Shown here: positions 254 through 33,441 of the stretch, piece by piece
How the letters are laid out: every line of letters begins with the position of its first letter
Position numbering within the stretch: the first letter of the stretch is position 1
DNA from: Lachnospiraceae bacterium
Lineage (GTDB): Bacteria > Bacillota > Clostridia > Lachnospirales > Lachnospiraceae
Reading direction: 5' to 3'
DNA: 34,969 nucleotides
Assembly (NCBI GenBank): GCA_017634975.1
Contig: JAGBMJ010000054.1
Location: forward strand, 1-34,969
The notes under the pieces: generated by a model
The model's input: only the letters and a program-made list of their open reading frames with translations
The model's database searches: none
Told to the model about the DNA's origin: nothing
Translations under genes and position numbers: made by a program

Positions 254-286
254 ATCTTATCATGCAAAGTGCAAGCATTGTGCAAG
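254..286 (-). promoter_or_regulatory. SARP-like promoter B, upstream of the left-edge gene
   Basis: On the minus strand the two 11-mers CTTGCACAATG and CTTGCACTTTG follow each other directly (276-286 and 265-275). The TTGCAC cores are therefore exactly 11 bp apart. Eight bases separate the proximal heptamer TTGCACT (268-274) from TAAGAT (254-259), a 4/6 match to the -10 consensus. The start codon at 198 would lie about 50 bases downstream of the expected transcription start. Repeat pitch and spacing match the three other copies in the window. The -10 is the weakest of the four. Confidence 0.72.
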
Positions 287-351
287 CGCTCTCCCTGACG
301 GTATTTGATTTATAATGATTCCCTTTCAACCATGTTTTCATTGTTGCATTC

Positions 352-384
352 ATTCTACAGTACCATGTGCAACAAAAGTGCAAG
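352..384 (-). promoter_or_regulatory. SARP-like promoter C, upstream of the left-edge gene
   Basis: On the minus strand CTTGCACTTTT (374-384) and GTTGCACATGG (363-373) give two TTGCAC cores 11 bp apart. The proximal heptamer TTGCACA (366-372) is followed after exactly 8 bases by TAGAAT (352-357), a 5/6 match to the -10 consensus. No convincing gene starts between this site and promoter B, so both probably serve the gene starting at 198. The upstream transcript would run through the promoter B repeats. Confidence 0.72.
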
Positions 385-409
385 TATTTTGTATGTTTTC
401 AAAGTTTTC

Positions 410-439
410 AAAAAAAGATGGCAGACACCATCTTTTTTT
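410..439 (-). terminator. rho-independent terminator after the phosphatase gene
   Basis: The stem GATGG / CCATC closes on a six-base loop and is flanked by A-rich and T-rich tracts on both sides. It can therefore act on minus-strand transcripts leaving the phosphatase gene (stop at 446) and possibly in the other direction too. It separates the phosphatase gene from the SARP-like promoters that follow. Confidence 0.85.
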
Positions 440-445
440 CTTCCT

Positions 446-2614
446 TTATTCTTTTCCATAATACTTCAGACACAGCATCGTGATATCATCAAACTGCGCA
501 GCCGTTCCCACATATTCCGCAATTCTCTCCGTTATGTTTTCCAGCACTTCTTCAGGCGTTGTATCCGCTTTACTGTTTAAAGCGTCCACCAGCCGTTTTT
601 CCCCAAACAGCTGATTCTCTTTCTGTGCTGCCTCGGTCACACCGTCCGTATATACAAAGAGCGTATCGCCACGGTGCAGCTCAAATGCGTGTTCCAGAAC
701 CGGAATCTCCTCCAGCAGCCCCAGCGGCGGAGAATGTTTATATTCCACCAGCGCAAACGCTCCTCCTTCATGACGAAGTGCCGGATGCTCATGCCCTGCA
801 TTCGCAGCCATTCCTTTTCCGGTAGAGATCTGCAGGATTGCCATCCAGACCGTAACAAACAATCCGCTGGTATTGTGTTCACACAGCTGCCGGTTTACAT
901 CCGACAGGATCTGCGCCGGTGAACCACCCATCTGCGCACGATTCCGGATGAGTGTCTTTGCGATCACCATAAACAGGGCTGCAGGTACACCTTTTCCTGA
1001 CACATCCGCCATCACCAGTGCCAGATGATCTTCATCGATCATAAAGAAATCGTAAAAATCGCCCCCCACTTCCTTTGCCGGATCCATCAAGGCATACAGA
1101 TCAAACTCACTGCGTTCCGGAAACGGCGGAAAGATCCGTGGCAGCATATCTGCCTGTATCCTGGCGGCTACATTCAATTCCGCCCCGATGCGCTCTTTCT
1201 CTGCGGTAATACGCGTATTCTCGGCAATATATTCTCTGGTACGCCGGGACAGTTCCGCAAAAGACTGTGCCAATACCTCGATCTCATCACCACTCTTATA
1301 TTCCTCCGCCATCTCAAAAGCCGGATCTTCACCTGTCAGAACAGCGATCCGCTTAGTCATACGATTGAGCGGCCGTACGATACGTCTCGCCAGGATCAAT
1401 GCGTTGACCAGCGCCAGTATTCCTAACAGCAGCAGCAACACAGTGATCATCTTCCCGGATCGTGTGATCCCACGGCGATAGCTTTCTTCTGCTGCCGCCC
1501 GGATCTCCCTCTGCTGTGCCTTCATCATCTCTGCCGGTTTTTCCACCGCCTCCCGGTAGGTTGCCACGACCACTGCCCAGCCCACGTTTTTGACCGGCGC
1601 CCCTGTCATGTAGCATTCTTTGTCCTCCAGCGCCACCGGACGTATTACACGCACTCCGTTTAAAGCATCCTTCACTACCGCTGCCAGATCCTCGGATCCC
1701 GCATTGCGCAGATCCACCGCCTCTGCAGTCGGCACCACCCGAAGTATACCTTCCGTCCTCGGCGAAAAGATCACGTGCCCTTTTTCATCCACGATAAACT
1801 GGAATCCGCTGTCAGTGGCACTGTCGCTGATCGCCTGTTCCATATCGTCCAGAAAAAGATCGCCTCCGACCACCGCGGCCAGCTTTCCGTCCTGATAGAC
1901 CGGTATGGCGCAGATAATACCGATGCGGTCCGTGTAATAATCCCTCTCGATCCCCGTAAAATACAGGCTGCCTTTTTGCTCGGCTCCCTGATACCAGGGA
2001 CGCGTCCTTGCATCAAATATATAATCCGCTTCCGCACATTCCTTTATAACCGCTGCATCATCGCACATCAGCGTCAGCCCGGATGGGGTAGCGATATAGC
2101 ACGCTCCCAGATACTCTGAATTATCCAAAAGGGACTTGAGCATTCCGCTCATATTGCCGATCAGTTCCATCTCTTCTAAGATTTCTTCCGAAGTCACATC
2201 CGTTTGCTGCGCATGAAGCCAGGCAGTCAGGTTTTCGCCTTCCGGAAATGTCGCAGGTACAGCCGGCTCCACACGCGCCGCCGCTTCCGGATCCGCATAC
2301 AATACTTCCGCATAATCGGCCAGCATATGTACATCGTTTCGGATCTCGCAGAACATACGATCCGCCAGATCCGCCTGCATGACCGCCGTATCGTTCATGG
2401 TATTATCCATCACGCCCTGCATCACGGCAGCCGAGATCGTCTCTACACTCTCCTGCTGCTGACGGCTCGTCTCCTCGATCACTCCGGCCAGTTCTTTTGA
2501 CTGATGGTAGATCACCAGCGTATAAACAAGAACGATCATTATAATGGTCAGAAAAACCAGGTTAAATACTTTATTCTCGATCCCGCCGATCACAAAATTT
2601 TTTATGCGTTTCAT
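446..2614 (-). CDS. RsbU/SpoIIE-type PP2C serine phosphatase with Cache-like sensor and HAMP
   Basis: A 722-aa membrane phosphatase of the kind that dephosphorylates STAS anti-anti-sigma proteins in partner-switching systems. In order: membrane segment (about 19-36), a large extracytoplasmic Cache-like sensor region, a second membrane segment (about 388-412), a HAMP-like linker, and a C-terminal SpoIIE/PP2C domain. Catalytic-type acidic motifs are visible: GGDFYDF near residue 517, ADVSGKG, YTDGVTEA near 653 and FDDIT near 706. I chose the ATG at 2614 because the upstream ATG at 2647 overlaps a TATAAT -10 element, while the 2614 start is preceded by AGGGAAG. The gene has its own promoter and is separated from the RsbW-like kinase gene by a terminator. 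The likely substrate is the STAS protein at 32499-32783; this is inferred from co-location. Confidence 0.93.
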   Translation of the reverse strand: MKRIKNFVIGGIENKVFNLVFLTIIMIVLVYTLVIYHQSKELAGVIEETSRQQQESVETISAAVMQGVMDNTMNDTAVMQADLADRMFCEIRNDVHMLADYAEVLYADPEAAARVEPAVPATFPEGENLTAWLHAQQTDVTSEEILEEMELIGNMSGMLKSLLDNSEYLGACYIATPSGLTLMCDDAAVIKECAEADYIFDARTRPWYQGAEQKGSLYFTGIERDYYTDRIGIICAIPVYQDGKLAAVVGGDLFLDDMEQAISDSATDSGFQFIVDEKGHVIFSPRTEGILRVVPTAEAVDLRNAGSEDLAAVVKDALNGVRVIRPVALEDKECYMTGAPVKNVGWAVVVATYREAVEKPAEMMKAQQREIRAAAEESYRRGITRSGKMITVLLLLLGILALVNALILARRIVRPLNRMTKRIAVLTGEDPAFEMAEEYKSGDEIEVLAQSFAELSRRTREYIAENTRITAEKERIGAELNVAARIQADMLPRIFPPFPERSEFDLYALMDPAKEVGGDFYDFFMIDEDHLALVMADVSGKGVPAALFMVIAKTLIRNRAQMGGSPAQILSDVNRQLCEHNTSGLFVTVWMAILQISTGKGMAANAGHEHPALRHEGGAFALVEYKHSPPLGLLEEIPVLEHAFELHRGDTLFVYTDGVTEAAQKENQLFGEKRLVDALNSKADTTPEEVLENITERIAEYVGTAAQFDDITMLCLKYYGKE

Positions 2615-2645
2615 CTTTCTTCCCTGTATCTTGTTTTTAAAGAAC

Positions 2646-2654
2646 ATTATACCA
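2646..2654 (-). promoter_or_regulatory. extended -10 promoter of the phosphatase gene
   Basis: On the minus strand TGGTATAAT is a perfect extended -10 (TGnTATAAT), 32 bases before the chosen start codon. I see no good -35 at the right distance, which is common for extended -10 promoters. It lies just after the terminator of the upstream kinase gene, so the phosphatase is probably transcribed apart from the T4SS operon. Confidence 0.6.
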
Positions 2655-2704
2655 AAAACAGGCAGCTTCCGCCACCTGTTTTGACCGTTTACACTGCTCC
2701 TGTC

Positions 2705-2749: not shown

Positions 2750-3184
2750 TTACATCTGTTTTGCAAAATCTTTCCGCATTCGCAGGATGTTCATGCCGCC
2801 TCGGTACTCATAAGTCACTTCATTCATCAGATGCTTGACCATATAGATCCCCAGTCCGCCGATCTGGCGTTTCTCCGCTTCGAGGGTCACGTCCGGATCC
2901 GGTTTTTTCAGCGGATCGTACGGAATCCCCTGATCCAGAAAAGTCATCCGCACCGATGATGTGTCCGGCGTAAAATCCAGCCGCACCGTGATCTCGCCTG
3001 CTTCATCATCCCCGTAAGCGTAATTTGCTACATTGGCATAGATCTCGTCCAAGGCAATATCTATGGATGAGATATCCCCCATGGAAACATCCCTCTTTTC
3101 CAGCTCCGTATCCACAAAATCCGCCACCTGTCCGTAATTCTCCAGGATCGCGATCACAGTCAGTTCCAGTTTTTGCTCTTCCAT
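2750..3184 (-). CDS. RsbW/SpoIIAB-like serine kinase (anti-sigma type)
   Basis: A 144-aa GHKL ATPase of the anti-sigma-factor kinase type. The N box is IDIALDEIYANVANYAY, with Glu47 and Asn51 as the usual base and magnesium ligand. The G1 box is FLDQGIPYD (about 82-90) and the G2 box GGLGIYMV (about 109-116). There is no sensor or membrane part. The family phosphorylates a serine in a STAS antagonist and is released from its target by the unphosphorylated antagonist. A candidate antagonist (32499-32783) and a candidate phosphatase (446-2614) are both in the window. Its usual target, a sigma factor, is not. The start has a strong GGAGG. It is the last gene before a terminator. Confidence 0.93.
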   Translation of the reverse strand: MEEQKLELTVIAILENYGQVADFVDTELEKRDVSMGDISSIDIALDEIYANVANYAYGDDEAGEITVRLDFTPDTSSVRMTFLDQGIPYDPLKKPDPDVTLEAEKRQIGGLGIYMVKHLMNEVTYEYRGGMNILRMRKDFAKQM

Positions 3185-3213: not shown

Positions 3214-5652
3214 TTATTTTATCCGCATGCCATGCTGTTTGGATTTTTCCTCTTTGCTCATCAGCGGCTCCTTATCCAGCATCTCCCGTTCTTTGCGTTT
3301 CTTATCGGCATTCTGCCTTGTCTTCTCCCTGGTTGCTGCCTTTTCATCGCCCTCTTTTTCCAGCTCACTTAAGCGGGCATTCAGTTCGTTATAACTCATC
3401 TTCCTGGTGGCCTTGCCCTGCTTTACGGTAATGTCAATGTTGGCTCCCAGTTCCTTTGCCCGTTCGGGATTTAAGATATCCATAGCATCCAGCGCATCCT
3501 TGATACGTGTGTTACCGAGACCGGAACCCATATTACGCTTGTTTCCGTTCAGAGTCTTTTCCCGGATATAATTCTCCGTTTTCTTTTCCACTTCCGCCAG
3601 CCGCTGTCCCATTGCCAGATCCATCGGACCACCCGGACGCATCAGATCCTTATATACCGCCATCTCGCCGAAATCGCGCTTCAGGGAGCCGAAGCTTCCC
3701 CCCAGTTCCTCACTTAAGGATCCTTTTACATTGCCCAAGGCCGACATCATGGTATCATATTTATCCGAATTCTTATGCCCCTTGCCGGTATGTCCCAGCA
3801 TGGTATCCATCAGATCCATGAGCTTAAATGCCTTTTCAATGTTCGGCCCCATTTCAAATTTCGGCTTCTTCGGTTTCGCTGCCTCTTCTTTTGCCTGTTC
3901 TTCTTTTGCAGGTTCTTCTTTTGCAGGCTCTCCTTTTGCCGGCTTTGCTTCTTCGGCGATCTCTGCCGACTGTTTCTCCTGCTTTTGCAGTGCCGCCTCA
4001 TTCAGTTCCGCGTGCGCCACACCCTTTAACGCTTTCCCGGAAAGCTTGCTGCCTTCCTTTAGAGAAAAGCTCTTCCGTGCAGAATTCTGCTCCTTTCCGG
4101 CCTCTTTCTCCGGCTTCTTTTCTGTTTTCTGCTCTTCTTTGACCTCCGGCTGTTTTCCCTCTATCTCGGCATGGGGAAGTTCTTCGATATCCTCCTTTTT
4201 CAATTTGCCGCGTACCGGCTTGTAAGACATACGTCCTGCTTTTTCCGCCTGCTTCTGCGCTTCATGATCGATCCCGTCAAAATCCAGATCCGCATTCTTA
4301 TCCGCCCGAAGAATGATCTCGGAGGCTTTTTCCTTCTTAAGTTCCGTTTCCTTGAAGAGCCCGGTGGTATCGGCACCTCCCTCCAGAACCACACTGTCTT
4401 TTTCTCTTTTGGGTACGGACGGCAGGAACAGATCCTTCACACGATCCGGTCCGGTCGGGAATGTAACATCACCTGCTCCGAAAAAGGAGGGCAATCCGTA
4501 ATTGGGCATCGGCACCTGCACTGCCGTTAAGCCCGGACGTCCAAACAGCTCTCCCACCAGACTGAAAGCCGTCTGCGGCAGCCAGCCCGAAAAGACCTTC
4601 ATAAATGCGCTCTGGAAGATATTCGGCTTAGGGTCCGCTGCCTCCGCATGATAGACTGCCGCATCATCGTTTGCCTTTTTTTCATGCTTATGGGTAAGTT
4701 CAATGTCCTCCTCCAGCTGTTTTGCCTCTTTGGTCTCTGCCTTGCCTTCTTTCTTCAGCGCATTCTGCTTCGGCTTTAACAGGTTTTCCCTGCGTTTATA
4801 GACTTCATCCGCATAGCGGTCTTCAACCTGCGCCGCCACCCTGCTGCGGTCTTTTGTCACCTGCGTCAGATGATCGCCCATTTCCTTTTCCAGATCTTCC
4901 AGTGGCTTTTTATCATCGCCCTCTTTCAGATTTTTACGCATTTTGTCAATGCGTTCGGTCAGATCCTTTGTTTTCTTATTCTGTTCCTCAAACAGGTCAT
5001 GGTTCTCAAGAAGACATCCCTCCTCGATCGCCTTGCGCATCTTTTTGTCCCACTCCTCCTGCGGCATATCCGCATTGCTGCGGAGCGCTTCCATGGTATC
5101 CTCGTTTTCCTTTTTCAGTTCCTCGAGGCTCTTTTCCGGCTCTTCTTTTTGGGGCGCTTCTTTTTTCTTTTCGTCTTTCGCCGGCGCTTTTTCCGCTTCC
5201 TTCGCTTCTTTTTCCGGAGCCTTTTCTTCTTTCCCAGGCTCTTTGACTTCCTTCTCCGGTGCTATTTCTTCTTTCCCGGGCTCTTTCTCTTCCTTCTCCG
5301 GTGTATCCTTTTTCTTCGATTCCGCAGCAAATTCGGTACGCTTCTCGCGGTCGCCCTTCACCAGATCCTCAACCGTTTCATCGATCTTCTGCTCGGCCTT
5401 CGCCATCTTTTCGGATGTTTTCTCCAGATTTTCCGTCAGATCCTTTAACAGCTGGGGATCCGGCTTGTCGCCCTGCACCGCTGCCGCGATATTCTCACGG
5501 ATCTCCTTCAGCTCCTCCTCCATTCTCCGGATATCGGGCATCTGCATATACTGGGATTTATAGGACTCGGTCATTTCCTGACGCCATTCTTCCTCCGTCA
5601 GTGTCATATCGTCCATGATCTCTTTGGTCTCGCGTATATTTTCCTTTGGCAT
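3214..5652 (-). CDS. large charged coiled-coil protein of unknown function
   Basis: An 812-aa cytoplasmic-looking protein with no signal peptide and no clear membrane segment. The N-terminal third is very rich in Lys and Glu, with long helical stretches and degenerate repeats such as KEPGKEEIAPEKEV and KEEPAKEEQAKEE. A less charged central part (about 350-420, with NIFQSAFMKVFSGWLPQTAF and PMPNYGLPSFFGAGDV) could fold or touch a membrane. The C-terminal third contains a conserved-looking segment (GPNIEKAFKLMDLMDTMLGHT, then a Gly/Leu-rich helix region). The start is supported by GGAGG. It follows a VirB6-like gene and precedes the RsbW-like kinase gene by 29 bases. It could be a cytoplasmic scaffold, an adaptor or a secreted substrate; the sequence does not decide. 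I recognise no family. Confidence 0.88.
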   Translation of the reverse strand: MPKENIRETKEIMDDMTLTEEEWRQEMTESYKSQYMQMPDIRRMEEELKEIRENIAAAVQGDKPDPQLLKDLTENLEKTSEKMAKAEQKIDETVEDLVKGDREKRTEFAAESKKKDTPEKEEKEPGKEEIAPEKEVKEPGKEEKAPEKEAKEAEKAPAKDEKKKEAPQKEEPEKSLEELKKENEDTMEALRSNADMPQEEWDKKMRKAIEEGCLLENHDLFEEQNKKTKDLTERIDKMRKNLKEGDDKKPLEDLEKEMGDHLTQVTKDRSRVAAQVEDRYADEVYKRRENLLKPKQNALKKEGKAETKEAKQLEEDIELTHKHEKKANDDAAVYHAEAADPKPNIFQSAFMKVFSGWLPQTAFSLVGELFGRPGLTAVQVPMPNYGLPSFFGAGDVTFPTGPDRVKDLFLPSVPKREKDSVVLEGGADTTGLFKETELKKEKASEIILRADKNADLDFDGIDHEAQKQAEKAGRMSYKPVRGKLKKEDIEELPHAEIEGKQPEVKEEQKTEKKPEKEAGKEQNSARKSFSLKEGSKLSGKALKGVAHAELNEAALQKQEKQSAEIAEEAKPAKGEPAKEEPAKEEQAKEEAAKPKKPKFEMGPNIEKAFKLMDLMDTMLGHTGKGHKNSDKYDTMMSALGNVKGSLSEELGGSFGSLKRDFGEMAVYKDLMRPGGPMDLAMGQRLAEVEKKTENYIREKTLNGNKRNMGSGLGNTRIKDALDAMDILNPERAKELGANIDITVKQGKATRKMSYNELNARLSELEKEGDEKAATREKTRQNADKKRKEREMLDKEPLMSKEEKSKQHGMRIK

Positions 5653-5737: not shown

Positions 5738-8098
5738 TTACTCTTTCTTATCTCCGGTATCCTCCTCATCGTCATCGTCGTCCTGCTCCTCCATATCCTC
5801 GTAGAGACTGCGGCCGCCGAAACTCTTCACCGATACCAGTTTCCTCTTTCCGGTTTCCTTGTCCAGTTTGTACGCGCGGTTGGAGGTAAAGCCCTTGCGT
5901 GCCACCACGTGATAGTTGCCCGCCTTGTCGCGGTCATACACGGAAGTGGTGCCCAGGAAGTTGCGATGCGTCTTGACAAATTCTGCTGTGCCGTCTTCCC
6001 TGACATTCTTCGCATAATGCACACCCAGTTTACTGTGCGTCTCCACCTTGCCGGTATCCGCATCAAAACGCTTCTTTAAGCCGATGGCGGAGCAGTTTGC
6101 CACATACATACCGCCCAGCGTGCGCTTGCCGTTTCCGTCCACCTGCTCGGTTCGCTTCAGCTGCATGCCCTTGGTCAGGCGTACCCTTGCCACCTGCAGC
6201 TTGCCGTCGGCATTGCGCTTGAATTTCACAAACGGTACCGCCAGCTTGTCGATCTTGCCGTCCGCGCCGCGCTTCCAGCTCAGACCGAATACATTACCTG
6301 CCACCGAACCGTCCGCCTGCATACCAAAGTGAAAGTTCTTGCCCAGGTTGATGCCCCAGCGGCTCTTGCCGTCCGGTCCGGTGCCCTTGACGAACATACC
6401 GCCCAGGAAACTCTTCTTTACCTTGCCCTTATTCGTAGTGCTCTCCGCACCGGATCTGTCTGCGCCGGTGCCTCTCTTTGCGTCCTGCTTTGCAGCATTG
6501 CCGGTCTCCGCAGTAGCCTTTGACGTTGCCGCCGAACCCTCAGCTGCGCCGAAGCCGCCTACGCCGCCACCGCCGGTTTTACCGCCGCCGGAGGACTTGT
6601 CGGAAGAGGACGATTTCCCGGAGAATTTATTGCTGTCAGAATCTCCGTCGTCCTCATCGCCTCCCTTCTTGTTTCCTTTCGCCTTCTCTTTTTCTTTGTC
6701 TTCCTTTTCCTTCTTCCGCTTCTTATCAAAGAGGCTTGTCGCCTTGCCGTATGTATATTTTGCGGCATCCCAGCCCATCTGTCCGGCCTTCAGTGCGTTC
6801 GAAACAGACGAAGCATTGGCACTGCTCTCCAGATTGGCTGCCGCGCTGCTGACAAAGCCGGTGATCACCGGACCTACATCCTTGATCATAAAGGCACCGC
6901 CGGCCAGCATGATCAGGCGGATCAGGTAATGTGCTGCCGGTGTGCCGGTACCGAACTGCACGCCGCCGTCCATGATAAAGGGGATCAGCATCAGATAGAC
7001 CTCCATGCCGATCATCAGACCAAAGGCGGAGAAAAAGGTACCGATGTACAGATCCTTCCAGCCCTCGTATTTCTTGCCCTGATCGAGGGGATAGGTACAG
7101 GCAAAGACCGGTCCCGCGATGGTCAGCACAAACAGATGAAAGATACGGGTAATGAAAGTGAGCGCGCCGCGCCCAAGCATAAAGAAGAACAAAAGCAGCA
7201 GCGCCACGCCGATCAGATAATCGATCTCCCGGACATCAAAGTCTCCCTTGGCAATGAATTCGCCCTTGGCATTTTTTTCCCAGAATTTTTTTGCCGCCGG
7301 AGTTTCTGTTTTCCCGCTTATAGTCGCATAATCACTGTAATAGTACTGCCTGCGGATGGAGTCCGAAGTGCCCGGTATCTCCGCCTGACTCCTGCTGTTG
7401 ATATTATAACTGGGATTCCAGGCCGCATCCATGGTACTTACGACAAAGATGGCGCGTCCGATGGTAGTCTTCGTACCGCGGTAGGTGGTATTCGACTGCG
7501 CTGCCTGCATACTGCCGAGGCCGGTGTTGACGGAATTGAGCAGCACGCAGGTGCCGATCATCAGAAAAACGCAGACAAAAGGCACCATGATCATATGCAG
7601 AAAGCCCTGAAAGATATCCCGCAGTACACGGTTTAATGGGTGCTGCACCTCATTACCCAATTCTCCGATGGAACGGATCACCGAAATAATGGAAAATAAG
7701 AGCAACAGGGCAAACGACACGCCGATCAACATCCAGATGGCCCGCCATACCGGCGAGATCTGAAACAGTGTCAGGATCAGATAGTTCTCCGCTCCGTTAT
7801 ATTTTACTTTGGTGATGCCGCCGAAGATATTAAAGCATTCCCCGATCCAGTCCAGCACCTGCAGTGCCTTGACATAAAACTCGAAAAGGACATCCACCAG
7901 GATATCAAAGACCATCTTGGCAATGGTCTGGAACATGGGGAAAAAGACATTCACAAGAAGAGGCTTTAACACCTCTTCAAAGAGAAAGGCCAGGATCTCA
8001 TTTAGTATGCCGGAAAGAAATTCAATGACCGGACGCAAAATGTTATCAAAAACCCAGTCGAATATTTTGCTGAAGAGACCAAGATATACCGGTTCCAT
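5738..8098 (-). CDS. VirB6/TrbL-like T4SS channel protein 3, with C-terminal repeat-type tail
   Basis: A 786-aa protein with an amphipathic N-terminus (VFDNILRPVIEFLSG, then EEVLKPLLVN) and several membrane segments to about residue 400. The motif PLDQGKKYEGW, followed by a YLMLIPFIMDGG segment, is shared with the proteins at 21663-26261 and 26283-27476. VirB6/TrbL proteins form the inner-membrane channel of T4SS. A Lys/Gly/Ser-rich linker (about 440-550) leads to a tail (about 557-786) of short beta-type units: GGMFVKG, KSRWGINLG, FDADTGKVET, YDRDKAGNYHVV, LDKETGKRKLV. The same tail occurs in the 1532-aa protein. The end is very acidic. The start has GGAGT and lies four bases after the sensor-like gene. 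Assignment as VirB6-like is by architecture and neighbours; the tail's function is unknown. Confidence 0.85.
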   Translation of the reverse strand: MEPVYLGLFSKIFDWVFDNILRPVIEFLSGILNEILAFLFEEVLKPLLVNVFFPMFQTIAKMVFDILVDVLFEFYVKALQVLDWIGECFNIFGGITKVKYNGAENYLILTLFQISPVWRAIWMLIGVSFALLLLFSIISVIRSIGELGNEVQHPLNRVLRDIFQGFLHMIMVPFVCVFLMIGTCVLLNSVNTGLGSMQAAQSNTTYRGTKTTIGRAIFVVSTMDAAWNPSYNINSRSQAEIPGTSDSIRRQYYYSDYATISGKTETPAAKKFWEKNAKGEFIAKGDFDVREIDYLIGVALLLLFFFMLGRGALTFITRIFHLFVLTIAGPVFACTYPLDQGKKYEGWKDLYIGTFFSAFGLMIGMEVYLMLIPFIMDGGVQFGTGTPAAHYLIRLIMLAGGAFMIKDVGPVITGFVSSAAANLESSANASSVSNALKAGQMGWDAAKYTYGKATSLFDKKRKKEKEDKEKEKAKGNKKGGDEDDGDSDSNKFSGKSSSSDKSSGGGKTGGGGVGGFGAAEGSAATSKATAETGNAAKQDAKRGTGADRSGAESTTNKGKVKKSFLGGMFVKGTGPDGKSRWGINLGKNFHFGMQADGSVAGNVFGLSWKRGADGKIDKLAVPFVKFKRNADGKLQVARVRLTKGMQLKRTEQVDGNGKRTLGGMYVANCSAIGLKKRFDADTGKVETHSKLGVHYAKNVREDGTAEFVKTHRNFLGTTSVYDRDKAGNYHVVARKGFTSNRAYKLDKETGKRKLVSVKSFGGRSLYEDMEEQDDDDDEEDTGDKKE

Positions 8099-17632: not shown

Positions 17633-17955
17633 CAGCTGCCCGCCTTTCTTGCTGTCCCCGCTGCCGGTTCGCCCGGCTCCATCGTTCCCACATTTTCCAT
17701 GGAAAACGGCTTGGATCTGGTAGGACGCTTCACGCGGCGGATCTTGCCCATCTGCATATCGATCCGCTCCAGCTCTGCCAGATTGATACGCCTGCGGTGG
17801 GGGTTATTTTCTTTTACCTCCGCCTGCTTTGTCGCCTGCTCTTCCTTCTTTTGCGGATGGTAGCCCTCTGCGGCACGGCGTGCTTTTTCTCTTTTCAGTT
17901 CCGCCAGCTCCCGGTTCCACATGGCCAGGTTCTTCGGACTGTCAAAATATCCCAT
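17632..17955 (-). CDS. small basic protein of unknown function
   Basis: A 107-aa, Lys/Arg/Glu-rich cytoplasmic protein (MGYFDSPKNLAMWNRELAEL) without membrane segments. I chose the ATG at 17955 because a GGAGGAGG site lies just before it, inside the end of the preceding gene; the frame stays open to 18012 but that part overlaps the lipoprotein gene. Only one base separates it from the lipoprotein stop, and its own stop overlaps the next start by one base. Tight coupling to the two neighbours suggests a small accessory of the same complex. The N-terminus is helical, the C-terminus disordered. No family recognised. Confidence 0.78.
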   Translation of the reverse strand: MGYFDSPKNLAMWNRELAELKREKARRAAEGYHPQKKEEQATKQAEVKENNPHRRRINLAELERIDMQMGKIRRVKRPTRSKPFSMENVGTMEPGEPAAGTARKAGS

Positions 17956-17956
17956 A

Positions 17957-24600: not shown

Positions 24601-26261
24601 CCGAGATCTGCCTTCGCACCGGGTTTGCCGGCTCCTGCCTCACTCTTATTACCGGCATCCTTGCCGGCACCGTCTTCTTTATCCGCGCCCAAAGCACCAC
24701 CCTTGCCTGCGCCGCTCTTCTCCGCCAGATTCTTGGCACTCTTCTTCTGGGCATCGCTGCCTGCACCGCCGCCCTGCTTCTTTCCTTCAAATTTCGCTCC
24801 CGTGCCCTTCTCTCCGGAGCCCTTGGAACCGTCAAATTTGTTGCTGCCGCTTTCCTTGCCTCCGGAGGAACCTTCCTTGCCTCCGCCGCCCTTGTCATCT
24901 TCCGGCAGCTCCGGCATCTTGCCGTCGCTATCCTTTTCGTCGTCCTTCCCGCCCTTCGGCTTCAGAGTACGATATGTCGCTCCTGCCACATTCTTTGCCA
25001 GTGACAGACCTGCGGATATCAGACCCTTGCCCTGCTGTGCCTGGGCACTCTCCATGGACGCCGCCGTGGAACTGATGAGTCCGGTCAGCATAGTGCCCGC
25101 GCTTTCGATGGCCAGCGCTCCGCCAATGATAAATACCATTCGGATCACGATATCGCCTTCCGGAGTGGTACTCATAAGATTCAGTTTACTGTCCAGCATA
25201 TAGGGTGCCACCATCAGATAGATCTGCATGGCAATGACCGCACCATAACCGGAGAAAAGCTGCCCGACAAACATCTCTTTCCACTGGTTGTAATTCTTCC
25301 CCTCATCCAATGGCATACTGCACACAAACAGTGGCGCGGTGATATACAGAAGGATCACATTAAAGATCCGGTTGATAAACTTAAACACGCAGGTTCCCAT
25401 GATCATCAGGAAGATGAGTCCCACGCCGAAGCCGGTCACGAAATTGAATTTTTCGTACTTAAAATCATTCCCCACCTGCCCCAGGTCGGAATACTTCTTT
25501 GCTCCGGAGATATCGGAAAAATAATAATATTTCCGCAGACTGTCCTGCATACCTGCGTTGCTGCTTACGTTACTTACGTTCGGGCCGTCCTTTGCCGCAT
25601 CCAGCGATGCCATGCAAAAGATCATCCTGCCCATGGTGGTCTCGTGCGCCCCGTCTTTTTCCGAGGCGGCCACCAGCTTTAAACCGTCATTGACCGACAC
25701 CAGTATGGTACCGGAGAGACGGATCAGCAGCATGCACACAAAAGGGATCATGACCAGTTTTAAAAAGCACTGAAAGGTCAGCCGCAGCACCTTACTGACC
25801 GGATTTTTCATCTCGCCGCTCAAATCCGCCATGCTGCGCATCACCGCGATAATGGCAAAGGCCATCATCAGTGCCAGGGAGATACTGATCAGGATCCATG
25901 TCGCCTTCTGTACAAAATCCCTGGAGAAGAACAGATCCAGCATATAATAGCTCTGACCGTCATATGACACCGGCTTGATCCCCGCAAAGACATCAAAGAT
26001 CTTTTGTATCGTATCGATGATCTTGAGTAGTTCCGCAAAGACCCCGTAGATCACACTGGCCAGGATCTCATAGATCAGTTCGATCAGCCACTTGAACAGC
26101 GGAAGCAGCACGTCCACCAGCAGGGGTTTCAGGATATTGTCAAATATCCATGTGAACACCTTGTTGATCAGACCGCCGATGAACTCGATGACCGGTTTGA
26201 GGATCGCGTTGAATATTTTTTTAAACAGGCTGGAAAATAATCCCAGATATACGGTTTCCAT
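21663..26261 (-). CDS. VirB6/TrbL-like T4SS channel protein 2 with very long repetitive tail
   Basis: A 1532-aa protein. Residues 1-430 are a VirB6/TrbL-like membrane region with the shared motif PLDEGKNYNQW and a YLMVAPYMLDSK segment. Residues about 430-640 are a Lys/Gly/Ala/Asp-rich linker. Residues about 645-920 match the tail of the 786-aa VirB6-like protein (GGMFVKG, KSRWGLNLG, NVFGLASWK, FDAETGKVET, YDRDKAGNYHVV) and contain extra 19-aa repeats. Residues about 920-1400 hold duplicated modules (QF(T/S)(M/I) ..GP..S..KDG(I/V)K.EAH, then an acidic NTIHEQAI unit). The end has PEAPQ/PEMPN units and a Gly/Ser/Lys tail. Ordinary VirB6/TrbL proteins are 300-600 aa. The tail could be an extended cytoplasmic or extracellular part; topology cannot be fixed by eye. 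Confidence 0.9.
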   Translation of the reverse strand: METVYLGLFSSLFKKIFNAILKPVIEFIGGLINKVFTWIFDNILKPLLVDVLLPLFKWLIELIYEILASVIYGVFAELLKIIDTIQKIFDVFAGIKPVSYDGQSYYMLDLFFSRDFVQKATWILISISLALMMAFAIIAVMRSMADLSGEMKNPVSKVLRLTFQCFLKLVMIPFVCMLLIRLSGTILVSVNDGLKLVAASEKDGAHETTMGRMIFCMASLDAAKDGPNVSNVSSNAGMQDSLRKYYYFSDISGAKKYSDLGQVGNDFKYEKFNFVTGFGVGLIFLMIMGTCVFKFINRIFNVILLYITAPLFVCSMPLDEGKNYNQWKEMFVGQLFSGYGAVIAMQIYLMVAPYMLDSKLNLMSTTPEGDIVIRMVFIIGGALAIESAGTMLTGLISSTAASMESAQAQQGKGLISAGLSLAKNVAGATYRTLKPKGGKDDEKDSDGKMPELPEDDKGGGGKEGSSGGKESGSNKFDGSKGSGEKGTGAKFEGKKQGGGAGSDAQKKSAKNLAEKSGAGKGGALGADKEDGAGKDAGNKSEAGAGKPGAKADLGEAGNKDAAAGKKGAAGGKKGGAGKPGMPAKPDADGKADADEEEEQEEQSQAATGGKKGGASGGKKGGAASKSDAGKKDGKKDKKQKFNKAGVRVTSSFLGGMFVKGVDKDGKSRWGLNLGSKFNFGLKKDGSVGCNVFGLASWKTDAEGNKTRSILGGAAKWGQDAEGNKTRSLLGGAAKWGENADGTKTRSLLGAASWKVDKDGNTTKISVPFMRFKSVDDGKGGKTFKLSKVQLTKGMKFKRAMYYDKETGALKTEMYCADFSPLGVKKAFDAETGKVETLRSITGDNFARTVNKQTGKVEYVKTHSDFLGRTKIYDRDKAGNYHVVASRGWVSSEVYSLNKDTGETTLLKSQLNSGFSLYDDFEAQEKSEEAAEQNNNGLGVPTLDAGPAGTQESGKKEGGKTGSGNAANLGAKKEPGQGKKTGVQGKAAQFSISAGPSLSADKDGVKAEAHTIQPAADNMDDIGESLNMLFNEEPAGAPQGGAAQFTMQSGPTMSGNKDGIKVEAHAAPAGAAQPNAPQAGAVQVEAPQPGAAQQVEVPVDAPQVEMPQMDAGGPDMLMEDMLNSSFSLGDDGVDNTIHEQAIESLNVGVPQMEIQQTETIQIEVPKAGAAQPEAPKAPQGSGVQFTMQSGPALSGNKDGIKVEAHQAPVQAEATGSAPQVEIHQAGAPTVENVEIEVPQADVGGADFSEPDILMDDVMNTAFSLDDDGADNTIHEQAIASLNADAPAVEPEEKIIVDEVPGATEINIVQKQLDGAPGSGSTGSSSGGSAGSGYGGSAFGGGYSGGRAGGSGSQGSVAQAQQAPAQERPVVEKHVEKEVEGAKIEIEQLVFADVPQGGDDGGNDGGDGGIAEDYGYPQENIADGFEVMEPEDFAQPEMPQVEAPQVNIPQPEAPQMNIPQPEAPKADMGRAEMPKPEMPNMNMSRPEMPNLNTAPGTGSSTGSTGSGNTGNKSSSGSTGGGNKGSGSRHGGKKK
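22421..23130 (-). repeat. coding module duplicated at about 410-420 bp
   Basis: Stretches at 22651-22720 and 23071-23140 are near-identical and exactly 420 bp apart (encoding GNKDGIKVEAH and flanks). The NTIHEQAI unit near 22442 recurs near 22851, 409 bp away, so an indel has changed the spacing. A third, diverged copy of the KDG(I/V)K.EAH unit lies near 23250. The array arose by internal tandem duplication in the VirB6-like tail. Confidence 0.85.
24004..24185 (-). repeat. 57-bp (19-aa) tandem repeat in the VirB6-like tail
   Basis: About three and a half units encode LLGGAAKW-type repeats with DAEGNKTRS. Phase marks recur at 24023, 24080 and 24137, exactly 57 bp apart. The corresponding segment of the 786-aa paralogue has a single unit, so the expansion took place in the 1532-aa protein or was lost in the other. 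Confidence 0.85.
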
Positions 26262-29100: not shown

Positions 29101-31290
29101 TCAGCCCTCCGCTTCTGCGCTTTCCTCATCTGCTCCCTGGTCCAGGATCAGATAGTTTCTCTCATCCAGATCGTAGAAAACTTCATCACTGTAAAATACA
29201 TTATTGCGTACATCCGTCATATCCATCTGTCCGAACTCGTAGAGCGGGCACTTGTAGCTGGGCGTAAACTGCGTCTTTAACGGATGATTGCCGAAGGTAA
29301 CGATGATCGAGTTACCGGTGGAATACTTATTGTTCAGCTTCATCAGTTCCGACGGATAGATCAGCGGCCGGTTGGTAAGCTGATTCGAGAAGTTGACCTG
29401 CTCTCCCTTATCTCCCGTCGATCCGGACACGCTGGTGGATCGTACCGTCATATTGCCGCACAGCTTCGAAAATTCTTCACAGGTGCCGATATCGTTGGAA
29501 CCGATGAACATCTTGATACCGCAGTTACCTTTTACGATATCCGCTACGGTCTCACCGTATACATTATTGAGCTGTGCAAAGGACTGGATGATCATGTGGA
29601 ACCAGATCTTACGGGAACGGCCTACGGTGATCATCTTGTCAAACTTGTCGATCTTCGGCATATTACCGAACTCATCAAGGATAAAGTATACGTTTCTCGG
29701 CAGGGACAGATCCTCCCGACCGGAAGCCACCTTGATGAGCGCTTTGTAGATGCACAGGATGAATACCGCTGCCAGCGCGTGACGAGTATCTTTTTCATCA
29801 GGGATCTTAAGGAACAGTGCCGTCGGTTCATAGGCAAACTGTGCCGGCTCGATATCGGTTGCCGCGGTCAGTGCGCACAGACCTTCGTCATTGAACATCG
29901 ACAATTTATCAAATGCGATGGACATATAGGAAGACAGTGTCTGATCCGCTGCAGAAAGCACCTGTCTGGAAAGGCCCACTGCCTTGGACAGTTTATCGCG
30001 TCCCTTGAAGTAGTCCTTCAGTGCGGCAAATTCGTTCTCGGAATTCATGATCGCCTTGGAGACATTAAAGAAGCAGAATTTCTCCTTGGTCATCTCCAGT
30101 TCCGGATTGGCGGAATCTTCCAGCATTGCCAGGCAAGTCGCCATGATGATGGAGCGCGCACCTTTCTCCCAAACCGGATCGTCCTTGGATTCGATGGGGC
30201 AGATGACGGAGATCAGGTCGTTTAAGTCCTCGTACATTTCATCGTAGATCTTCTGTTTTTCCACACGGATCTTGCCGATCAGCGCCTTGCGGTCGGAATA
30301 CGCCTTGCCCTCATACTCATACCAGACATCTCCGAAAGTCTCCCTCGGGTTCACCAGTTCCAGCCCCTCCGCTTCATCGATGGAGAAAGTATTTTCGTAT
30401 ATCTCATCCCCCGTATGCAGATATTCCTGATAGCGGTCATAGATATCTCCCAGCGGATTCCAGCGGAAAGAGGAATAGGGATCACGCAGATCCAGCACCA
30501 TACATTTATAACCATGCTCCTTGAGCATCTTGGAATGCATCTGAAAGAGTTCGCCCTTCGGATCGGTACAGATCATGGAGGAACCGGCTGCCGCATGTCC
30601 CAGGATCTGGATCAGCGGGTTTACAAAGGTGGTGGTCTTACCGGAACCGGTAGCACCGATGATGATACCGTGGCAGGGCGACATCAGGTTGATATCCATT
30701 TCCTTTTTCTTCTGGTTGTAGACCGCGTAAACCGCCACACCGTCCTTTTTCTCTTCACCGAGAGCACTGTATTTCTTGTGCGGGAACAAGTCGTCACGTT
30801 CCTTATCCGTTAAGAAGCGGGAATTCTCCAGGTTACCCTCGATGCCTTCCACCTTGGAACGCAGCATCTTGCCGCCATTCTTGAAAGGTGTGCCACTGCC
30901 GACTGCAAAATACAAAACGATACACAGGATTTCCAGGATCAGACCGTAGATGTAGGTCGTGCCCCAGCCCATAACGCCCATATCCAAAAATTTTTCGTTT
31001 TTCAGCTGTATGCCGGAACCGTTCACAAATGTTGCATAATCCGGAAAGGTCTCCACCGCCAATGCCGCCAGTTCCTCATCCGTCATATCGGTTTCCTGCG
31101 ACTTCCAGTTTTCCACCACGATCGCCTGTGCTGTCGGCAACAGCCGATTCCCCACGGACTTCGGTGCATTTGCCGGAACTCCGATATAAGCCCACTGTGC
31201 CATCGCTGCCAGGGCGCCGATGATGACCGCCAGCACCAGGCCGACCCCCGCCCAGATCGCCAGTTTTTTCCCGAATTCCTTCCAGTCCAT
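29101..31290 (-). CDS. virD4: VirD4/TraG-type T4SS coupling ATPase
   Basis: A 729-aa coupling protein that selects substrates and delivers them to the T4SS channel. Two membrane segments lie at about 11-33 and 112-130. Walker A is GATGSGKTT (212-220), preceded by SPCHGIII. Walker B is YFILDEFGNMPK (near 532-545), the form typical of VirD4/TraG. A later QSFAQLNNVYG strand and a TGNSIIVTFGNHPLK strand complete the RecA fold. The start has AGGAGG. It precedes the signal-peptide protein with almost no gap and follows the CPBP protease by 20 bases. VirD4 proteins act in both DNA and protein transfer, so its presence alone does not show that DNA is moved. Confidence 0.96.
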   Translation of the reverse strand: MDWKEFGKKLAIWAGVGLVLAVIIGALAAMAQWAYIGVPANAPKSVGNRLLPTAQAIVVENWKSQETDMTDEELAALAVETFPDYATFVNGSGIQLKNEKFLDMGVMGWGTTYIYGLILEILCIVLYFAVGSGTPFKNGGKMLRSKVEGIEGNLENSRFLTDKERDDLFPHKKYSALGEEKKDGVAVYAVYNQKKKEMDINLMSPCHGIIIGATGSGKTTTFVNPLIQILGHAAAGSSMICTDPKGELFQMHSKMLKEHGYKCMVLDLRDPYSSFRWNPLGDIYDRYQEYLHTGDEIYENTFSIDEAEGLELVNPRETFGDVWYEYEGKAYSDRKALIGKIRVEKQKIYDEMYEDLNDLISVICPIESKDDPVWEKGARSIIMATCLAMLEDSANPELEMTKEKFCFFNVSKAIMNSENEFAALKDYFKGRDKLSKAVGLSRQVLSAADQTLSSYMSIAFDKLSMFNDEGLCALTAATDIEPAQFAYEPTALFLKIPDEKDTRHALAAVFILCIYKALIKVASGREDLSLPRNVYFILDEFGNMPKIDKFDKMITVGRSRKIWFHMIIQSFAQLNNVYGETVADIVKGNCGIKMFIGSNDIGTCEEFSKLCGNMTVRSTSVSGSTGDKGEQVNFSNQLTNRPLIYPSELMKLNNKYSTGNSIIVTFGNHPLKTQFTPSYKCPLYEFGQMDMTDVRNNVFYSDEVFYDLDERNYLILDQGADEESAEAEG

Positions 31291-31310: not shown

Positions 31311-32495
31311 CTATTTCCCTGTAACTCTTCTCCACAACAGTTTCAGATCCAGCTGCCCCGTATACACCGCTGCCAGGAAAAGCGATATTACCACTCCCAA
31401 TATACCGTAAACCGCGATCAGCGCCTTACTGCCGAAGAACAGATTATATTTCACCGGATCGTCCGTGATGAAATAATTGACTACCGATGTCGCATTAAAA
31501 CCGATATGCAGGATCACCCCGTAAGCGATGTTGTCTTCCTTCATCGAAGTCTTCGCCAGAATCTGTCCCAGCAGGAACGCATACAGAACCCAAATGAAAC
31601 TGCCGTGCAGCAGCGCGAAGATGATACTGCTGATCAGCACGGCCGTTTTTTCCGGAATATGTTCCAGCAGTGTATTGAGCATATGCCCGCGGAAGATGAT
31701 CTCCTCCACCACCGGTGCCAGAAACAGTACGGTACCGAGCATAAAGATCAGATCCACACCCAGATACAGTTTATTCGCGGCCTGCGTATAAGCCGTTGTC
31801 AGGAAAAAACGCGGCAACAGCGTCACCAGAGCCGATACCGCCGTGGCGCTGGCAAAGCCGAAAGCAAAAAATCCGATCGCCCGCATCGGACGCATTTCCC
31901 GGAAAAAAAGGGTACTCTCTTCCCAGATGGTGCTGCCCCGGCGCTTTGCCCCCTTATGCAGGATCCACAATGTCAGAAAGGTTCCCACCGTGGTATAAAA
32001 ATTCGCGCCGTAGGAAAAGAATTCCTCGATGGTATATTTCGCTTCCTGATAGCCTCCGAACAGATATCCCAGTGTCAGACAAAGCGACGGCATCAGTGCA
32101 TACAGAAACAGCGGCCATAACGCTCGCAGGAAAAGTCCTCCGTAGAGCCAGATCTTCTGCTGCGTTGTCAGCGGCCCCTTGGGCCATTCCTTCTTCGGTG
32201 CCGGTTTGACTACCTTTACCGGCTTCTTTTTCGGCGGCTTCACCGGTTTTTCCCGCTGTACCATGCGTGTGACCGCATCCGCCGCCCGGCTCAGGCGCTC
32301 TAAGCTTTCGCTGTTTCCCTCTGCTGCCTGTCGTTGTGTGCTTTCGCCGCTTCCTGCTTCCTTCGCGGGCTGCTGCATCGTGCTTTTGCTGCTATCCGCT
32401 TTCTTCACGGACTGTCGCTCCGAACGCTTTTCTTCGGATCTTACTTCGGAGCTTTCCTCGTTCTGCCGCTTCGCCGGCCTCTTCTTTCCGGACAT
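31311..32495 (-). CDS. CPBP (CAAX/abortive-infection type) intramembrane protease
   Basis: A 394-aa protein with a charged, Lys/Ser/Glu-rich N-terminal tail (about 1-110) and about seven membrane segments. The family's three motifs are present: EEIIFR (Glu264, Glu265, Arg269), FALLH (Phe293, His297) and HIGFN (His330, Asn334). CPBP proteases cut within membranes and in other bacteria process small peptides, protect against own bacteriocins or degrade anti-sigma factors. Here it lies between the STAS gene (3 bases) and virD4 (20 bases), so processing of a T4SS part, such as the pilin or a signal-peptide remnant, is a possibility, not shown by sequence. The long charged N-tail is unusual for the family. 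Confidence 0.93.
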   Translation of the reverse strand: MSGKKRPAKRQNEESSEVRSEEKRSERQSVKKADSSKSTMQQPAKEAGSGESTQRQAAEGNSESLERLSRAADAVTRMVQREKPVKPPKKKPVKVVKPAPKKEWPKGPLTTQQKIWLYGGLFLRALWPLFLYALMPSLCLTLGYLFGGYQEAKYTIEEFFSYGANFYTTVGTFLTLWILHKGAKRRGSTIWEESTLFFREMRPMRAIGFFAFGFASATAVSALVTLLPRFFLTTAYTQAANKLYLGVDLIFMLGTVLFLAPVVEEIIFRGHMLNTLLEHIPEKTAVLISSIIFALLHGSFIWVLYAFLLGQILAKTSMKEDNIAYGVILHIGFNATSVVNYFITDDPVKYNLFFGSKALIAVYGILGVVISLFLAAVYTGQLDLKLLWRRVTGK

Positions 32496-32498: not shown

Positions 32499-32783
32499 TT
32501 AATCTTCCAGCGTCAGGAATCCGGAAAATCCGGTCACGTCAAAGATCTCACGCACCTGCTCATTGGCGCCCCGGATCAACATCGTGCCGCCGTTCGCATT
32601 TACTTTTTTCTGCATGGTCAGCAGCGCACGCAAGCCCACAGATGAGATATATCCGGTCTCGGACATATCGATCACCAGGTCATATTTGCCTTCTGCCGCC
32701 AACGCTTCCAGATCCGCCGAAAGCTTCGGTGCTGTTCTGGTATCGATCTTTTTTTCGGTTTTGTAGATTGTCTGTTCTGCCAT
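32499..32783 (-). CDS. STAS anti-anti-sigma protein (RsbV/SpoIIAA type)
   Basis: A 94-aa single STAS domain. The characteristic strand-helix is LVIDMSETGYISSVGLRALL; the phosphorylatable serine should be Ser48 (second Ser of ISS), where the usual Asp before it is replaced by Ser. In this family the unphosphorylated form binds and sequesters an RsbW-type kinase. An RsbW-like gene (2750-3184) and an RsbU-like gene (446-2614) lie at the other end of the locus. I chose the ATG at 32783 because it lies nine bases after GGAGG; the ATG at 32789 is only three bases away and would add two residues. It is the second gene of the main operon. Confidence 0.92.
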   Translation of the reverse strand: MAEQTIYKTEKKIDTRTAPKLSADLEALAAEGKYDLVIDMSETGYISSVGLRALLTMQKKVNANGGTMLIRGANEQVREIFDVTGFSGFLTLED

Positions 32784-32803
32784 TTTCATAGTCCTCCGTT
32801 TTT

Positions 32804-33271
32804 TTATTCCTCGATCGGTTCGCCGTATTCATTTAAGTAGATCACCCGGCCGTCGTCACCGTAGATAAAGAGGTTGCCGTGCTCATCTTCATAACAGTAT
32901 TCATCCTCGGCCTCTTCCATATCTTCTTCGATCTGTGCCCGGCGCAGCTCCGCCATCTCTTCCTCGGGGATCGTGCCGTTATCGATGATATATTCCTCGG
33001 TGTCCATCTCGCCGTTCAGGATCGCTTCTGCCTGGCGTGCCACTTCATAATACAATGCATCATCCTCGATATCATCCAGGATCATCTCATCATCTTCTCC
33101 CGCATGGAATCCCATGATCTGAAGTTCGCCTTCCCCGCCTTCTCCGGCAGGCTGAAGCACGATAAAATCCTGTCCCCGCACCCCCAGTGTCAGAACAGGT
33201 TCAAAGATATGCTCATTTCCCTCCGGATCCACCAGTACCATTTCCAGTCTTTTTTCCTGTTCTTCTGCCAT
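32804..33271 (-). CDS. DUF1292-like acidic protein, first gene of the main operon
   Basis: A 155-aa, strongly acidic protein. The N-terminal part (VLVDPEGNEHIFEPVLTLGVRGQDFIVLQP, then an acidic turn and IMGF) resembles the small DUF1292/YrzB proteins of Firmicutes. The C-terminal half is an extension with DDIEDDALYYEVARQAEAILNG and a closing strand pair NLFIYGDDGRVIYLNEYG. No enzyme motif is visible. The start has AGGAGG. It is the first gene after the dual promoter region and is followed after 20 bases by the STAS gene. Function unknown; the family occurs near general housekeeping genes elsewhere, so its placement here is unusual. Confidence 0.8.
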   Translation of the reverse strand: MAEEQEKRLEMVLVDPEGNEHIFEPVLTLGVRGQDFIVLQPAGEGGEGELQIMGFHAGEDDEMILDDIEDDALYYEVARQAEAILNGEMDTEEYIIDNGTIPEEEMAELRRAQIEEDMEEAEDEYCYEDEHGNLFIYGDDGRVIYLNEYGEPIEE

Positions 33272-33309
33272 GCGTGTTCCTCCTTTTTAACCCCATTTGC
33301 AGGAAATAT

Positions 33310-33325
33310 ACACAAAATATTGTGT
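33310..33325. promoter_or_regulatory. AT-rich inverted repeat in the operon leader
   Basis: ACACAA-AATA-TTGTGT gives six-base arms around a four-base centre. It lies just downstream of the expected start of the sigma-A promoter (33339-33367), a position suited to a repressor operator. The short arms make chance possible. Confidence 0.35.
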
Positions 33326-33338
33326 CATATCCTTTTAT

Positions 33339-33367
33339 TTTATACTACATTTACAAAAACGTGTCAA
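33339..33367 (-). promoter_or_regulatory. sigma-A promoter of the main operon
   Basis: On the minus strand a perfect -35 TTGACA (33362-33367) is followed after 17 bases by TATAAA (33339-33344), a 5/6 -10. It lies between the SARP-like promoter D and the first gene (33271) and could give basal expression without the activator. Confidence 0.82.
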
Positions 33368-33408
33368 TTTCAGACCGTGAAAAGGCACAGCCTTCCCATT
33401 CCAGATCT

Positions 33409-33441
33409 ATCATACCACCCAAAGTGCAACAAAAGTGCAAG
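33409..33441 (-). promoter_or_regulatory. SARP-like promoter D, upstream of the main operon
   Basis: On the minus strand CTTGCACTTTT and GTTGCACTTTG (33431-33441 and 33420-33430) give two TTGCACT heptamers 11 bp apart. Exactly 8 bases separate the proximal heptamer (33423-33429) from TATGAT (33409-33414), a 5/6 -10. The site lies 42 bases after the response regulator stop. Transcription from here would read through the sigma-A promoter into the DUF1292-like gene with a leader of about 130 bases. Confidence 0.82.

Follow-up and report, generated by a model that had tools for sequence, protein, structure and literature searches.

Paired-heptamer operators dispersed through Lachnospiraceae genomes and a two-component system at a type IV secretion locus as their probable regulator

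Background

Besides LelB, PmrA and CpxR regulate effector genes in Legionella, a Gram-negative pathogen with the Icm/Dot type IVB secretion system. In the effector regulons of this genus one regulator and one operator serve many effector genes of a type IV secretion system (T4SS), and LelB orthologues control a few or 19-36 genes, depending on the species (excerpts of PMC12239595). Here we describe what may be a comparable arrangement in a Lachnospiraceae bacterium (assembly GCA_017634975.1, 4.36 Mb in 147 contigs, genome G000). The stretch analysed, called the window below, is the entire 34,969-bp contig JAGBMJ010000054.1 (C145); it encodes a T4SS locus beside a histidine kinase and a response regulator (RR), and bears an operator that recurs before many unlinked genes. 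It differs from Legionella in its Gram-positive host, its conjugation-like T4SS, a winged-helix RR in place of a LysR-type regulator, and operators made of tandem 11-bp units.

The Streptomyces antibiotic regulatory proteins (SARPs) AfsR, ActII-ORF4 and PimR carry a BTAD domain after the winged helix and target antibiotic biosynthesis. The present system resembles them in its heptamer direct repeats and in a weak profile match to AfsR and EmbR, and differs in that no BTAD was detected, a receiver is fused to the output domain, and the regulon concerns secretion. Heptamer repeats of SARPs are classically 11 bp apart and overlap the -35 region (excerpts of PMC5930380 and PMC10972967). RRs of the OmpR/PhoB family, such as PhoP and DrrD, share the receiver and winged helix, and PhoP binds 7-bp repeats with a 4-bp spacer (excerpt of PMC4832192). 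Dedicated effector T4SSs in Gram-positive bacteria have been a long-standing question, for which one protein-secreting case, the Streptococcus suis 89K T4SS, is named in section 22 of PMC12857230; that section gives a single substrate and describes no dispersed substrate regulon. Search listings, which mostly leave out subscription journals, yielded no paper on T4SS effectors of Lachnospiraceae or on a SARP-type regulator of a T4SS.

Operator sites in the window and in the genome

Exact matches to TTGCACW-N4-TTGCACW-N8-TAnnnT were found at four places in the window (254-285, 352-383, 16483-16514 and 33409-33440), all on the minus strand, as are the genes. The same pattern, including the -10 hexamer, gave no match in 100 dinucleotide shuffles. 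Without the -10, the window held four exact matches among 16 with up to three mismatches, the latter number being modestly over chance (mean 8.0). A preliminary description of this DNA had reported four gene-directed heptamer pairs of 11-bp pitch, with TAAGAT, TAGAAT, TATAAT and TATGAT hexamers 8 bp from the proximal heptamer, and our scan agrees with it throughout; the one additional base in its spans (286, 384, 16515 and 33441) is a C, which precedes 99% of 79 distinct sites. Each site is intergenic by our gene assignment, some being overlapped by purely mechanical open reading frames (ORFs). Together they serve three transcription units: the DUF1292-STAS-CAAX-VirD4 row, the pilin gene, and a gene cut by the contig end (1-198).

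The preliminary description had also proposed a regulon local to the T4SS locus. The genome-wide scan ruled this out, since 15 of the 19 exact sites with a -10 lie on other contigs, before genes for candidate substrates, chemoreceptors, lipoproteins and other products. Contigs C118 and C137 carry identical copies of one locus for a protein with the C-terminal module described below, so that 18 sites are distinct; the copy reflects either assembly duplication or strain mixture (the contamination value of the genome is 7.5%). With one mismatch allowed and no -10 required, 23 matches were found in the genome, against three for the reversed pattern. A near-site with one heptamer base changed precedes the gene of an 845-aa candidate substrate (locus L038 on contig C50, complement, from about 3256 downward).

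Sites were then counted in a genus set of 35 genomes, G000 included, and in a family sample of 299 genomes. Exact sites numbered 19 in G000, 15 in G013, 17 in G014, 15 in G016, 15 in G030 and one in G018 (72% complete), and were absent from the remaining 29 genus genomes; the reversed pattern with a -10 gave no match in any of the 35. The five site-rich genomes, hereafter clade A, are exactly those with an RR orthologue at 72-100% identity, the best RR paralogues elsewhere in the genus being at most 48% identical (Fisher 3e-6, phylogeny ignored). Within the family sample matches occurred in G000 and, one each, in G036 and G048; the lone G036 site has no RR or T4SS homologue within the surrounding 15 kb.

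The heptameric direct repeats of 11-bp pitch amount to 81 sites in six genomes. In a logo of the 79 distinct sites, two bases outside the search pattern were conserved, a C at -1 (99%) and a T at +18 (97%), and a T followed by G/T bases was favoured before the -10. The spacer was TTGC in 53 of the 81 sites and the -10 was TATAAT in 40. These letters suggest CTTGCACTTTG, recurring every 11 bp, as the natural operator unit. For 77 of 79 sites a called start lay 68-353 bp from the site start, the corresponding share among 2893 random positions of these loci being 50%, and 30 of 79 sites overlapped an ORF of at least 150 aa, as against 93% of random positions; in both respects the sites look like promoters.

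The first genes behind the 81 sites were classified by eye as T4SS rows (10), kinase-regulator rows (4), SpoIIE-type phosphatases (4), chemoreceptors (5), lipoproteins (9), and candidate substrates or small genes leading them (42), with six others and one unassigned. A site precedes both the DUF1292 gene and the pilin gene in all five clade-A genomes. Where the region is assembled, in four genomes, a site is followed by a TM198-like membrane gene, the kinase, the regulator, a further site, DUF1292 and STAS, in that order; because a site heads the row of lead gene, kinase and regulator, the switch would reinforce itself.

Variant operators in related clades

Related T4SSs were found in G010 and G022 (clade B; VirB4 78-82% identical) and in G029 and G005 (clade C; 57-60%). 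Their RRs have diverged much more, to about 45% and 40% identity, respectively; the RR gene is on the T4SS contig in G010, G022 and G029 and on a different contig in G005. The TTGCAC operator was found in none of the four. The preliminary description had named loci that keep the genes and not the repeats as evidence against its proposal; taken literally these genomes are such a case, but they have their own versions of the repeat. The versions were first spotted upstream of module genes and have the geometry of clade A with different letters: CRCW-TTTG-CTACRC in G010 and G022 (14 and 5 exact matches, 17 and 7 at one mismatch) and RACACT-NNTG-NRACRCT in G029 and G005 (11 and 7 exact). A TGACAC operator, at first a single match in G029, later proved to be one variant of the CAACACT-type operator.

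Neither variant was found in the clade-A genomes tested (G000, G013 and G030), and seven genomes with RR paralogues gave none except one single-mismatch match each in G017 and G032. The clade-B pattern at one mismatch also had nine matches in G029 and one in G005, which we read as the operator belonging to those genomes. Reversed controls gave three matches in 14 genomes for the clade-B scan and none for the clade-C scan. Flanking DNA was examined for 34 of the 37 exact variant sites: a homologue of a clade-A target (pilin, MPSH family, lipoproteins, DUF4176, module proteins) lay downstream of 16 and upstream of none, five of the upstream stretches being short. The DUF1292 promoter of G010 and G022 looks like an ordinary -35/-10 promoter without the clade operator. 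A DUF4176 protein stands behind a clade-A operator in G013 (L113:1116-1439) and its homologue behind a clade-B operator in G010 (L230).

The segment that we assign as the putative recognition helix is invariant in the five clade-A RRs, which are otherwise down to 72% identical, and is different in clades B and C. Operator letters and helix changing together by clade is as expected if the RR reads the operators, and the variants accompanying diverged RRs link regulator and operator more closely than the motif does by itself.

The response regulator

The RR of the window was aligned with 13 relatives. Trans_reg_C was recognized at E <=0.1 in 10 of these 14 proteins (best 2.2e-5), and scored 17.9 bits in the window protein, under the Pfam cut-off of 26.2. 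An OmpR-like winged helix, as in SARPs, is thus present, located after a receiver. BTAD gave no match at E <=0.1 in any of the 14, which have about 35 residues beyond the winged helix, ending in a conserved CDYY..Y.GEYM..YSWAE tail; our impression is that this tail may be a BTAD remnant. Compared with the PDB, the output-domain profile matched EmbR over positions 3-117 and AfsR over 5-79 (E 0.015 each), both SARPs, and the OmpR-type DrrD over 28-85 (E 0.008), the matches being about equally weak; the later start of the DrrD match and the conserved tail are points of difference from the OmpR/PhoB family. The description of the regulator as SARP-type was therefore retained in part. The winged-helix output and the 7+4 heptamer geometry agree with it, but the RR is not classed as a SARP because BTAD was undetected in the 14 aligned members, and its profile is no closer to SARPs than to DrrD. 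Nor is the geometry specific to SARPs, since PhoP has the same 7+4 arrangement (excerpt of PMC4832192), and the excerpts of the SARP papers PMC5930380 and PMC10972967 contain no statement of an 8-bp distance from repeat to -10.

A second RR paralogue, 36-42% identical, has its gene no more than about 5 kb away from sites in G013 (L089, contig C255), G014 (L129, C206) and G030 (L143, C15). At L089, homologues of SpoIIE, RsbW-like and STAS proteins lie beside it and the regulator gene has an internal stop.

Candidate substrates

A hydropathy filter retained 33 of the 57 closed first-gene products that reach 160 aa, and removal of four lipoprotein-like proteins left 29 candidates, one of which resembles a metabolic enzyme. 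A C-terminal region of about 100 residues (the module) recurs in many of the candidates. Strong module matches (E <1e-10) in the 35 genomes were confined to the five clade-A genomes, G010, G022, G029 and G018, three further genomes having matches near 1e-4 only. They thus occurred in 8 of 11 T4SS genomes (10 by VirB4, and G013 by VirD4) versus 1 of 24 others (Fisher 6e-5). A strongly hydrophobic segment is lacking from 49 of 52 module ORFs. In clade A and G018, the 5' end could be seen for 36 module ORFs, of which 22 had an exact site and four a site at 1-3 mismatches; this rate (26/36) is biased, because many regions were fetched for holding a site and strong matches were fetched with only part of the weak ones. 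Three of the 10 without a site stand in rows behind a site-headed small gene. None of the 10 module ORFs of G010, G022 and G029 with the 5' end in view had a clade-A site, and seven had the operator of their own clade.

For tests of C-terminal tails, five homologues were removed from the 29 candidates, leaving 24, and near-duplicates from 175 control tails, leaving 150. The motif [RK][KR][LIT]xxx[ED][LVM] is present in all six G000 candidates by construction. Within the last 110 residues it was found in 4 of 18 candidates from other genomes (0.2 expected from shuffles) and 0 of 150 controls (1.2 expected). A relaxed form matched 7 of 18 candidates and 4 of 150 controls, and some candidates end in HGVNDVMxNNKxxVP-like tails; the relaxed and HGVND counts are not independent, because these expressions were picked after viewing other tails. 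Of two soluble window proteins with similar tails, the one at 17632-18012 fits the strict motif and the one at 3214-5652 does not. An unsupervised 10-residue tail motif was a mixture dominated by HGVND tails (188.6 versus 146-173 in eight shuffles run with fewer starts and rounds), and was not used because of this mixing and its modest excess over shuffled tails. The tail motif could be a signal read by VirD4.

A 1350-aa regulon protein (L025:3845-7897, G000 contig C23) has the tail motif and is not among the module matches. It contains two PI3/PI4-kinase-like regions (PF00454, E 3.3e-12, two stretches), the first with DRHDGN and IDND and the second with DRNESN and IDND; Fam20C matched the second weakly (1.7e-7), and no PDB sequence matched at E <=1. 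A near-identical homologue in G014 is cut by a contig end. The kinase-like domains suggest a eukaryotic target, though the target could be bacterial. A 187-aa acidic protein heads rows of module proteins (L024:980-1543 and L135:8459-9022) and could be a substrate chaperone.

The type IV secretion locus

Features of the window are listed in Table 1. The hallmark of a T4SS is present, in that VirB4 and VirD4 ATPases are encoded in one locus with conjugal membrane proteins and a pilin. VirB4, the membrane proteins and the pilin match conjugation families of Mycoplasma integrative and conjugative elements. No relaxase was found among the 21 window ORFs scanned with Pfam, the contig ending on both sides and the genomes not having been searched for relaxases. 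The product of the contig-cut gene at 1-198 is 62-65% identical to the first 63-65 residues of site-preceded proteins in G014, G016 and G030, and 44% identical over 48 residues to a protein behind a clade-C operator in G005. SpoIIE, RsbW-like and STAS genes lie within the locus (446-3184 and 32499-32789), and their products might gate secretion.

Table 1. Operator-promoters and genes of the window
Position	Strand	Feature	Basis
1..198	-	Start of candidate substrate gene (MPSHLVEEGKKYESKLEKTRTILYG...), cut by contig end	Homologues behind sites
254..286	-	Operator-promoter TTGCACA-N4-TTGCACT-N8-TAAGAT with preceding conserved C	Exact match; shuffles
352..384	-	Second, tandem operator-promoter of the same gene (1-198), TTGCACT-N4-TTGCACA-N8-TAGAAT	Exact match
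446..2647	-	dCache-HAMP-SpoIIE phosphatase, presumably RsbU-like	SpoIIE E 6.2e-50
2750..3184	-	HATPase_c_2 kinase, presumably RsbW-like	HATPase_c_2 E 5.8e-24
3214..5652	-	812-aa soluble protein, candidate T4SS substrate, tail RKMSYNEL (outside strict motif)	Sequence; no Pfam or NCBIfam match
5738..8098	-	Second MMCAP2_0566-family membrane protein	NF045848 E 5.3e-49
16048..16431	-	T4SS pilin (VirB2-like)	PF18895 E 9.7e-10; NF045849 E 5.5e-14
16483..16515	-	Operator-promoter of pilin gene	Pilin likewise preceded by a site in G013, G014, G016, G030
17632..18012	-	126-aa soluble protein, tail RRINLAEL fitting candidate substrate motif	Sequence; no Pfam match
18799..21624	-	VirB4 ATPase	P-loop_TraG E 8.4e-22; Mbov_0397 family E 7.9e-162, 540 bits (cut-off 590)
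21663..26261	-	MMCAP2_0566 conjugal transfer family membrane protein (VirB6-like, our label)	NF045848 E 3.5e-56
29101..31290	-	VirD4 coupling protein	T4SS-DNA_transf E 2.5e-51; NCBIfam conju_CD1115 292 bits (cut-off 250)
31311..32495	-	CAAX-type membrane protease homologue	Rce1-like E 1.8e-17
32499..32789	-	STAS-domain protein, presumably anti-anti-sigma-like	E 2.1e-16
32804..33271	-	DUF1292 protein, first gene past the 33409 site	E 1.1e-8
33409..33441	-	Operator-promoter of DUF1292-STAS-...-VirD4 T4SS operon	Equivalent position in G013, G014, G016, G030
33483..34292	-	Response regulator, receiver and winged-helix output; proposed activator of regulon	Receiver E 2.4e-19; Trans_reg_C E 0.0034
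34321..34969	-	Histidine kinase, C-terminal part at contig end (LytS-like, our label)	His_kinase E 5.8e-23; HATPase_c E 1.8e-13

Proposed mechanism and alternative explanations

We consider it probable that the kinase-RR pair acts as master switch for a T4SS regulon spread over the genome, which includes candidate substrates and whose operator has diverged in relatives. The pair heading the T4SS locus would act in this way in a Lachnospiraceae group with named relatives sampled mostly from the rumen. The phosphorylated RR is predicted to bind as a tandem pair on two 11-bp units of consensus (R)CTTGCACTTTG-CTTGCACTT. Judging from the geometry, these units would replace the -35 box and help sigma-A polymerase onto a -10 of the TGn-TATAAT type 8 bp downstream. 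The RR would thereby activate its own operon, those of the T4SS, and a number of unlinked genes. Roughly half of the unlinked genes would encode candidate substrates, mostly large soluble proteins and about ten in the bacterium of the window. Many of these have the C-terminal module and some a short basic-hydrophobic-acidic tail, and most likely the T4SS carries them. Related species, whose operator and putative recognition helix have changed, would retain the circuit. Binding and activation by the RR, like translocation by the T4SS, we infer from these patterns.

Several observations weigh against this reading. The link between sites and regulator is a co-occurrence in few and related metagenome-assembled genomes (MAGs). 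Within clades B and C the RRs are 93% and 97% identical, so that an invariant helix there says little. The G013 assembly is without VirB4, yet VirD4 and other components are present, and in G018 module genes occur together with one exact and one near-site, though RR and VirB4 are both missing. G005 (67% complete) has a T4SS and clade-C sites but no module match, and no such RR, clade-A site or module was found in G025 and G034 despite their T4SS (only the clade-A pattern was run on them). The autoregulatory site is not visible in G000, where the lead gene was looked for and not found. Ten of the 36 module ORFs have no site (at least nine mismatches), six of the 81 first genes fall outside our by-eye classes in addition to the unassigned one, and the tail motif is absent from most regulon proteins of genomes other than G000.

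An origin of the sites in a repetitive element or in chance is exceedingly improbable: they are near identical, as a repeat would be, but their conservation ends at the operator and promoter edges, the controls with a -10 gave no matches, and many different genes lie downstream. It is also quite unlikely that the regulon is real and is activated by another protein, such as the second RR paralogue or an alternative sigma factor, with the adjacent pair serving something else. The paralogue does lie near sites in three genomes, and the locus holds SpoIIE, RsbW-like and STAS genes, which are typical of sigma-factor control. However, a search at E 1e-20 did not find the paralogue in G000 or G016, with their 19 and 15 sites, and its G013 copy is interrupted; the -10 is sigma-A-like, the upstream element is a tandem repeat and not a single -35, and the operator letters change along with the T4SS-associated RR in three clades.

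The role of the module proteins is a separate matter. They could be co-regulated without being substrates, remaining cytoplasmic or leaving by another exit such as a type VII system; this is possible, though we doubt it. DUF4176 proteins belong to the regulons of clades A and B, and this family neighbours type VII genes; the module also occurs in G018, where no T4SS is assembled, and is absent from three T4SS genomes. Against this stand the concentration of strong module matches in T4SS genomes, the rarity of strongly hydrophobic segments among module ORFs, and the tail motif or a similar one in two soluble proteins of the T4SS locus itself. That the T4SS is the ordinary conjugation machine of an integrative element, with module proteins as cargo (entry-exclusion, anti-defence or polyvalent proteins) accompanying DNA, is suggested by the Mycoplasma-type families of its components; we regard it as unlikely, given the lack of a relaxase in the scanned ORFs of the window, the spread of targets over many contigs, and the chemoreceptors and lipoproteins in the regulon. 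Under the master-switch reading, the module-bearing and other large soluble regulon proteins are likely T4SS substrates.

Implications

The four closest named relatives of the RR (72-92% identical) are from Lachnospiraceae MAGs, three of them titled sheep omasum, sheep rumen and roe deer rumen, and the host is probably a gut bacterium of ruminant origin. Tentatively, and with less than even confidence, we suggest that rumen Lachnospiraceae may possess a dedicated protein-injecting T4SS, parallel in function to that of Legionella, with a large modular repertoire directed against eukaryotes (ciliates, fungi or animal epithelium), the 1350-aa protein with two kinase-like regions being a likely member, under one two-component switch, the circuit being kept through at least three operator versions. 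The regulon supplies a set of candidate substrates, a promoter rule by which more may be found and a candidate C-terminal signal, and its clades would offer a natural experiment in operator evolution.

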